Of a stretch of 64,000 nucleotides of DNA, positions 23,743-25,150 are shown piece after piece; the stretch's first letter is position 1, and each line of letters begins with the position of its first letter. The DNA is from Gemmobacter fulvus (lineage in GTDB: Bacteria > Pseudomonadota > Alphaproteobacteria > Rhodobacterales > Rhodobacteraceae): the NCBI RefSeq assembly GCF_018798885.1, contig NZ_CP076361.1, positions 744,001 through 808,000 of the forward strand, in the 5' to 3' direction. The translations under genes and the position numbers were made by a program. The notes under the pieces are model-generated. The model was not told the origin of the DNA, made no database searches, and was given only the letters and a program-made list of their open reading frames with translations.

Positions 23743-24246
23743 ATGACAGCCATCGACCGTTCAGGCGCAACCCTAGTTGCGCCGCGTGCTGCGCTGAATT
23801 TCTTTGATGCGCAAACTGTTGCGCTGCCCCGGCCCGTGACGCCGCTGGCCGCCTGGAATCACCTTATGGCGCATCCGCTGCCACTCATGGCCACCGCGTT
23901 CCGGCTGCGCGATGCGATTTCGGCCCGGTTCGGGGTGAAACGCATTGGCGGCTTTTCCGGCGCGCCGCGTGACCATGTGCAACCGGGGGACATGCTGGAT
24001 TTCTTCCGGGTCGAGGCGGTGTCGGATCACGAACTGGTGCTGACCGAGCGGGACCGGCATCTGGATGTGATGACTTCGGTCATGGTGCGGCAGAACCGGC
24101 TGTGTATCACCTCGTCTGTTGTCACCCACAATCTGTTCGGAAAACTCTATATGTTGCCGGTCGGCCCGGCACATCGGCTGATCGTCCACCAGATGTTGCG
24201 CCGTCTGAGCCGTAGCCTTGCCGCCGCTGCCCCGCCTGTGCAGTAA
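23743..24246 (+). CDS. DUF2867 family protein
   Basis: This 167-aa soluble protein contains the DUF2867 pattern: FRLRDAISARFGVKRIGGF in the first half, then GDMLDFFRVEAVSDHELVLTERDRHLDV and FGKLYMLPVGPAHRLIVHQML. The domain has a START/SRPBCC-like appearance and no established function. RBS AGGAGA lies upstream of the ATG. It stands alone between the Usp gene and the 56-aa protein. Confidence 0.8.
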   Translation: MTAIDRSGATLVAPRAALNFFDAQTVALPRPVTPLAAWNHLMAHPLPLMATAFRLRDAISARFGVKRIGGFSGAPRDHVQPGDMLDFFRVEAVSDHELVLTERDRHLDVMTSVMVRQNRLCITSSVVTHNLFGKLYMLPVGPAHRLIVHQMLRRLSRSLAAAAPPVQ

Positions 24247-24276
24247 CGTCATATCGGCATTGCCTGCTGTGGAGGG

Positions 24277-24305
24277 TGGCATTTTGCTGCAATGCAGCAT
24301 ATATA
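24277..24305 (+). promoter_or_regulatory. Promoter with a palindromic operator in its spacer
   Basis: TGGCAT (24277-24282) and TATATA (24300-24305) are 17 bases apart. The spacer holds the perfect 15-base palindrome TGCTGCA-A-TGCAGCA (24285-24299). A repressor there would block RNA polymerase directly. It precedes the 56-aa protein gene by about 40 bases. Confidence 0.45.
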
Positions 24306-24341
24306 GGATGCGGGGAGGATGACGTTGCAAAGGTAAAACCG

Positions 24342-24512
24342 ATGTTCATGCGCTTCAAAAAACCGCAGTCCCCCCTGCCCGCCACCCCGGCCCCTGTGGC
24401 CGCCCCGGACGAGACTATGGCGTATTATGTGCCTGATACTGCATCGAAAAGCACGGACACGCCCAGCCCGCTGGATCAGATGTATGAATATTACAGCTAT
24501 GATCCCGCCTAA
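24342..24512 (+). CDS. Small hypothetical protein (56 aa)
   Basis: A short frame starts MFMRFKKP, passes through a Pro/Ala-rich middle and ends with a Tyr-rich tail (QMYEYYSYDPA). AAAGG lies about eight bases before ATG 24342, and a promoter with a palindromic operator is directly upstream. I do not recognise it; the acidic, aromatic C-terminus looks like a binding peptide or an unstructured adaptor. Coding status is plausible rather than certain. Confidence 0.55.
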   Translation: MFMRFKKPQSPLPATPAPVAAPDETMAYYVPDTASKSTDTPSPLDQMYEYYSYDPA

Positions 24513-24514
24513 GA

Positions 24515-24531
24515 TTTAGAATAGTTCCAAA
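24515..24531 (+). promoter_or_regulatory. Irr/ICE-like iron-response operator upstream of nfu
   Basis: TTTAGAA-TAG-TTCCAAA is a 7-3-7 inverted repeat with one mismatched pair. It resembles the TTTAGAA...TTCTAAA sites proposed for the iron regulator Irr in alphaproteobacteria. It sits directly before a TTGACT -35 element and a gene for an Fe-S scaffold, a fitting target. The identification rests on resemblance only. Confidence 0.45.
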
Positions 24532-24532
24532 C

Positions 24533-24561
24533 TTGACTTTCCGCCCCGCAAGGCGCATATC
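24533..24561 (+). promoter_or_regulatory. Probable nfu promoter
   Basis: TTGACT (24533-24538) and CATATC (24556-24561) are 17 bases apart, predicting a start about 20 bases before the nfu ATG. The Irr-like palindrome ends two bases upstream of the -35 element. Confidence 0.45.
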
Positions 24562-24586
24562 CGACGACAACTGTCGGAGATACCAG

Positions 24587-25150
24587 ATGTTCATCCAGAC
24601 CGAATCCACACCAAACCCCGCCACGCTGAAATTCCTGCCCGGCCAGACCGTGCTCGATCTTGGCACTGCCGATTTTCCCAGTGCTGACGCGGCCTCGGCC
24701 TCGCCGCTGGCAAGCCGCATCTTCACGGTGCCGGGCGTGCAGGCCGTGTTCTTCGGCACGGATTTCGTGACGGTGACCAAGGCCGATACCGCCAATTGGG
24801 ATCACATCAAACCGGCCATTCTGGGCGCGGTGATGGAACATTACCAATCCGGCGCGCCGGTGATGGCGGGCGAAGGCAAGGCTGCGGGCGGCCATGCCGA
24901 ACACAGCGGCGAAGATGCCGATATCGTCAAACAGATCAAAGAGTTGCTGGATACCCGCGTGCGGCCTGCCGTGGCGCAGGATGGTGGCGACATCACCTTC
25001 CACGGCTTTGATCGCGGTGTGGTTTACCTGCATATGCAGGGTGCCTGCGCCGGATGCCCCTCGTCGACGCTGACCCTGAAAATGGGTATCGAAAACCTGC
25101 TGCGCCACTATATCCCCGAAGTCACCGAGGTTCGCCCTGTTGCGGCCTGA
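24587..25150 (+). CDS. NifU-like Fe-S cluster scaffold/carrier (Nfu)
   Basis: This 187-aa protein combines the N-terminal Nfu domain (MFIQTESTPNPATLKFLPGQ) with the C-terminal NifU domain carrying the cluster-binding CxxC (Cys154, Cys157 in GACAGCPSS). Nfu proteins deliver 4Fe-4S clusters to target apoproteins. GGAGA precedes the ATG. An iron-type operator lies upstream. Its last 11 bases overlap the TTG start of tsaB, so nfu-tsaB-rimI form one operon. Confidence 0.92.
   Translation: MFIQTESTPNPATLKFLPGQTVLDLGTADFPSADAASASPLASRIFTVPGVQAVFFGTDFVTVTKADTANWDHIKPAILGAVMEHYQSGAPVMAGEGKAAGGHAEHSGEDADIVKQIKELLDTRVRPAVAQDGGDITFHGFDRGVVYLHMQGACAGCPSSTLTLKMGIENLLRHYIPEVTEVRPVAA

Follow-up and report, generated by a model that had tools for sequence, protein, structure and literature searches.

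The small gene and its neighbours

A gene for a 56-residue protein ending in YEYYSYDPA lies between a DUF2867 gene (23743–24246) and nifU, whose ATG was read at 24587. Genes for a universal stress protein and a branched-chain aminotransferase also lie upstream. All positions refer to the window, a stretch of 64,000 nucleotides that corresponds to 744001–808000 of contig C1 in a 4.68-Mb Gemmobacter genome. The features of the locus are listed in Table 1.

Table 1. Features at the locus of the 56-residue protein (window positions)
Feature	Position	Strand	Basis or remark
TGGCAT, the -35 of the preliminary description, weak	24277–24282	+	2/6 match to TTGACA; no sigma-70 match
Proposed PhaR operator, TGCTGCA-A-TGCAGCA (7-1-7 palindrome)	24285–24299	+	Sequence, match to published sites, family test
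Palindrome core, CTGCAATGCAG	24287–24297	+	Within the 24285–24299 palindrome
Palindrome 12-mer, TGCAATGCAGCA	24288–24299	+	Fits TGCRNYGCASMA
TATATA, -10-like hexamer directly 3' of the palindrome	24300–24305	+	Sequence
GGGAGGA leader element, complementary to the CU-rich loop of CcsR, not at Shine-Dalgarno (SD) distance	24313–24319	+	
AAAGG, SD-like, 8 nt 5' of the ATG	24329–24333	+	Sequence
ORF of the 56-aa protein, stop included (ATG 24342, TAA 24510–24512)	24342–24512	+	Conserved; in-frame purifying selection
Tyr box 1, DETMAYYVPD, residues 23–32	24408–24437	+	Family alignment
Tyr box 2, SPLDQMYEYYSY, residues 42–53	24465–24500	+	Family alignment; helix 43–51 in a low-confidence model

The preliminary description had placed a palindrome between TGGCAT and TATATA, and it was found there (24277–24305); the 17-nt spacer consists of TT followed by the palindrome. 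A consensus scan of 24100–24700 gave no sigma-70-type site at threshold. Because TGGCAT matches TTGACA at 2 of 6 positions and the scan found no match, this -35 hexamer is weak or wrongly placed. The locus had been described as a tightly repressed promoter. The palindrome between the hexamers is indeed operator-like, but it stands next to a poor -35, and tight repression is only suggested. No known RNA was found in Rfam at E ≤ 1 between 24000 and 24800. Between the ORF and nifU, 24515–24539 reads TTTAGAATAGTTCCAAA and then TTGACTT, with similar sequence in relatives. To us this element looks like an Irr-type box, which responds to iron, at the promoter of nifU.

Homologues were found in 8 of the 10 same-genus genomes searched, the own genome apart. 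The other two, G003 (87% complete) and G008, gave only matches at E 0.96 and 0.86, which were taken as chance. The nine genus genes form 36 pairs, which are not independent; pN was below pS in 35 of them in frame, compared with 18 and 12 when the frame was shifted by 1 and 2. Differences at the three codon positions numbered 681, 632 and 962. The 56-aa ORF is a real protein gene under in-frame purifying selection, and the neutral pattern that the preliminary description had named as the argument against it was not seen. Met1 is the likely start, because two members read MFL and not MFM; start codons of the family members were picked by eye.

A role as nifU leader or attenuator is extremely unlikely for the ORF, and so is the view that it is no gene at all. 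nifU does come next, at most 130 nt away, in 8 of the 9 genus loci, but selection acts in frame on the 56-aa ORF, several homologues outside the genus have no nifU start in the 110 nt 3' of the stop, and nifU is preceded by a TTGACTT sequence of its own.

When 295 Rhodobacteraceae genomes, each from a different genus, were searched at E ≤ 0.01 with a model of the nine members, 18 matched. A 25-member model matched 36 of the 295 at E ≤ 0.05, the weakest of which are doubtful and may be false. Among 385 genomes drawn from the class, the own genome alone matched at E ≤ 0.001. These counts can miss members, because only 17–22 candidates were scored per genome in both sets. Family members have 46–62 residues and were found here in Rhodobacteraceae only. 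L077 was omitted from the 25-member alignment. The held-out set (n = 11) comprised 10 of the 19 non-alignment matches (L094–L097, L099–L103 and L105) plus L059; L098, L104, L106 and six matches without loci were omitted, and L099 and L102, possibly false members, were kept.

The alignment revealed two boxes, with the family consensus AYYxPE and, at the C-terminus, LSALEQMYGYY. M1, Y28, M47 and Y50 are invariant among the 25 members. The tail singled out in the preliminary description is Tyr-rich and conserved, but it is only one of the two boxes. A single-sequence model (mean pLDDT 64.7) contains one helix, residues 43–51, and the peptide is probably a mostly disordered chain with a short helix.

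The 56-aa protein matched nothing in Pfam or NCBIfam, and the 25-member family matched nothing in PHROGs or among PDB sequences, in agreement with the earlier view of an undescribed small protein. Three Pfam families gave weak matches, each to a single one of the 25 members (best E 0.0038), and were disregarded. A phage origin was rejected, there being no PHROG match. Among open-licence papers, none was recognised as describing the family. The small-protein family is new, and the kind of switch in front of it is a known one.

The palindrome and PhaR

The window contains 13 perfect 7-1-7 palindromes, and each of 20 mononucleotide shuffles contained 1–13. The palindrome alone is not beyond chance, because shuffles reach 13 too, and its rarity was rejected as evidence. 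The 15-mer has 3 matches in the window at ≤2 mismatches including itself (expected 0.74). The window contains no second copy of it at 0 or 1 mismatch. The arrangement alone, on which the preliminary description had relied, is a thin argument, since 7-1-7 palindromes are common and the hexamers weak; conservation carries the case.

A site within one mismatch of CTGCN3GCAG was found upstream of 9/9 Gemmobacter homologues, and it is exact in L001, L003, L005 and L007. The genus sites stand directly 5' of TATA or TAAA. Because the members share ancestry, these genus counts are not independent. In the family, the exact motif occurs within 150 nt upstream of 18 of the 36 members examined (14/25 in the alignment, 4/11 held out), compared with 4 of 1183 control windows drawn from the same loci as the members. 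With one mismatch allowed, the numbers are 19/25, 7/11 and 152/1183. Ten of the 36 members have no site even at one mismatch: L064, L065, L066, L069, L071 and L072 in the alignment, and L095, L099, L101 and L102 in the held-out set. Several of the former six have the TGCAGCA half-site. It is the conservation of the site, not the palindrome itself, that exceeds chance.

Sites of PhaR, a repressor that senses the bioplastic PHB, have been published for other Alphaproteobacteria. The R. sphaeroides site is CTGCNNNGCAG, attributed to Chou and Yang 2010 in the excerpted text of PMC12542648, and the B. diazoefficiens consensus is TGCRNYGCASMA (PMC6201568, in excerpt). The sequence at 24285–24299 fits both. 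The own genome encodes PhaR, with matches over the cut-off to PF07879 (96 bits) and to the equivalog TIGR01848 (156.8 bits, cut-off 109.45), and carries a phaZ-phaC-phaP-phaR cluster at C1:845000–853000. Upstream of its phaP stand TGCTGCACTGCAGCA and then TCTATATT, plus two further CTGCN3GCAG; this phaP was called from where it lies and from a Pfam match below threshold (21.6 bits, cut-off 24.9), with no NCBIfam match. GCAGCGCAGCAA precedes phaR, provided that phaR starts at an internal Met, as we read it. Co-occurrence with PhaR was discarded as evidence: it tests nothing, because 285 of the 295 Rhodobacteraceae genomes sampled carry PhaR.

The own genome contains 263 exact CTGCN3GCAG copies, compared with 52 for the reversed control. 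This far exceeds a plausible regulon, so a single match elsewhere carries little weight. GCANYGCAGCAW, which is longer, has 39 copies, compared with one for the reversed control, and many copies lie within some long reading frame. Other sites form a selective set, since about a dozen places were inspected and positions were taken from 100 of the 263 copies. Among them are sites before pyruvate carboxylase (pyc), a DUF1127-CcsR locus and urtA (two sites, 68 bp apart). S. meliloti Pyc, UreA and UreB are grouped in one PhaR-affected module (PMC12542648, in excerpt).

Two further observations were made at such sites. One site adjoins a small protein ending in RRHYSAYY (L154:1518–1772, site TGCTGCGTTGCAG); this protein is DUF3563-like, with 26.5 bits, just below the cut-off of 26.9. 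The region upstream of pyruvate carboxylase (L031:8700–8830) contains CTGCAATGCAG and several TTTGCA or TTTCGCAAA words, which we presume to recall a RamB/PccR-type site.

Taken with the published sites, the conserved operator makes PhaR control of the 56-aa gene likely. Such control would extend to many, not demonstrably all, family members, and another regulator with a similar motif is possible. The half-site TGCAGCA or its complement stands upstream of 20/25 and 5/11 members (29/1183 controls), which is wider than the full PhaR core, and elements of the TGTGCAGGTGCAGCA type are found repeatedly upstream of DUF1127 genes and of their paralogues. A different regulator might therefore read this half-site (also TGC-N4-GCAGCA), common to DUF1127/CcsR stress genes; in that case the peptide would take part in a response to stress or in RNA turnover, with the resemblance to PhaR sites being secondary. 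We regard this as unlikely: both in the genus and at phaP, it is the full palindrome with 3-nt spacing that lies against the -10.

The GGGAGGA leader and CcsR

GGGAGG was found at -42 to -15 in 25 of 36 members (18/25 alignment, 7/11 held-out) and in 4 of 3901 controls; the frequency at -40 to -15 of long-ORF upstreams was 4/492. On visual inspection, most members were seen to have an SD-like sequence closer to the start as well. In family leaders GGAGG is preceded by G in 18/19 cases and followed by A in 14/19, compared with 8/27 and 8/27 for GGAGG at the SD position of long ORFs. These leader flanks fit the complement of the CcsR loop CCUCCUCCCUG better than do the flanks of SD-position GGAGG.

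A CcsR1 of the own genome was found at 91.4 bits (gathering 65.3), behind a DUF1127 gene. At L031:4309–5000 (G000:C1:987308–988000), a PhaR-like site precedes a DUF1127 gene, behind which lie 10 CCTCCTCCC copies and matches to CcsR1/ar14. Eight of 10 DUF1127-CcsR loci of the genus (L107–L116) have an upstream site within one mismatch of CTGCN3GCAG. The corresponding R. sphaeroides locus has an RpoHI/RpoHII promoter (PMC10253847, in excerpt). DUF1127 paralogues (L124–L130, L122) share conserved upstream GCATGGCGGC and TTGTGCAGGTGCAGCATTTGCCCCAT-like blocks.

Pairing of the own leader with the CcsR loop was calculated at -19.0 kcal/mol, a value reached by 1 of 86 ORF upstreams in the window (ORFs of at least 200 aa, the 56-aa ORF not among them). 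The leaders of 13 of 25 members were matched by ≤5 of 200 shuffles; the others are less clear, and that of L063 was matched by 134. Because the loop resembles an anti-SD sequence, the pairing energy is suggestive only. A conserved leader hairpin was rejected as a family feature (mean z -0.39 over 36 members, own leader +0.21). Clean leader hairpins occur in a few members (L004, L069, L074, L105). Hairpins in L069, L074, L094 and L105, for example GGAACTC...GAGTTCC and GAGGTTG...CAACCTC, stand directly before the start, with SD-like sequence within or beside them.

The GGGAGGA leader is a second, strongly conserved element, and CcsR control on top of the operator is possible. An sRNA layer of some kind is rather unlikely. 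It is very unlikely that the main control is post-transcriptional, with CcsR-type sRNAs pairing to the leader and setting translation or decay while the operator gives a basal level only. The enrichment of GGGAGG, the flanks, the own CcsR1 and the pairing energy speak for it, but that energy is confounded by the anti-SD likeness of the loop, about half of the leaders do not stand clear of their shuffles and L063 does worse than most of its own, there is no conserved leader fold, and the same picture would be expected of a ribosome standby site.

Proposed switch and known systems

Our preferred reading, which we consider moderately probable as a whole, is that the locus is a peptide gene of an undescribed family, repressed by PhaR and switched on by PHB, whose product may be a short disordered adaptor. 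From a site, its conservation, a frame and its selection that are seen directly in the sequence, we infer PhaR binding at the palindrome and a response to PHB. PhaR leaves DNA for PHB granules as the polymer forms, and returns once phasin covers the granules (PMC7204398, a review, in excerpt). With little PHB, PhaR would sit on the palindrome directly 5' of the -10 and block RNA polymerase. When granules form, PhaR would move onto them and free the operator, and the 56-residue peptide would be made along with phasin.

The peptide may then act as a short adaptor, binding a granule protein or a metabolic enzyme through its Tyr boxes; this role is a tentative guess. The phasin-like control site and the C-terminal helix of the model, which is short and contains many L, M and Y residues, would also suit a minute phasin-like granule coat with this helix on PHB. 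We consider a coat improbable, and favour an adaptor over it, because the peptide has no phasin match and is far shorter than the own PhaP; the model is also of low confidence.

The preferred switch could carry two locks, PhaR on the DNA and CcsR-type sRNAs on the GGGAGGA leader, with the peptide, of a lineage-specific family, carrying the carbon-storage status to other parts of the cell. A PhaR-like site precedes the CcaF1-CcsR locus as well, so that a single circuit would join PHB, the stress sRNAs and the peptide. This extension is rather improbable.

With its conserved boxes and an operator open to testing, this is a defined family in a group where 285/295 sampled genomes carry PhaR. It offers a handle on PHB-responsive products besides phasins, and on how carbon storage may be tied to the CcsR stress RNAs. 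Judged from sequence, the carbon-storage response of this Gemmobacter species and its relatives probably includes the 56-aa protein as a component overlooked until now.

Compared with the PhaR (AniA) regulon, the palindrome at 24285–24299 fits the published sites and lies beside the -10, as before the own phaP. However, the gene product is neither phasin nor synthase nor depolymerase and has no family match, and binding is predicted only. No Pfam match to phasin (PhaP) was found for the 56-aa protein, and there was no phasin among the matches of the 25 members. PhaR regulons do hold strongly regulated hypothetical small proteins, such as SMc02051 and SMc03998 of S. meliloti, and the predicted PhaR site of SMc02051 ends in GATGCAGCATTA (PMC12542648, in excerpt). 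Unlike these two, which were compared by description alone, the 56-aa family was found in Rhodobacteraceae only. The CcaF1 (DUF1127)-CcsR system of Rhodobacter (CIN1 locus) differs in that the 56-aa protein has no DUF1127 match in Pfam and 24000–24800 has no Rfam RNA; it is alike in that the own DUF1127-CcsR locus has CTGCAATGCAG upstream and its CcsR loop complements the leader of the 56-aa gene.
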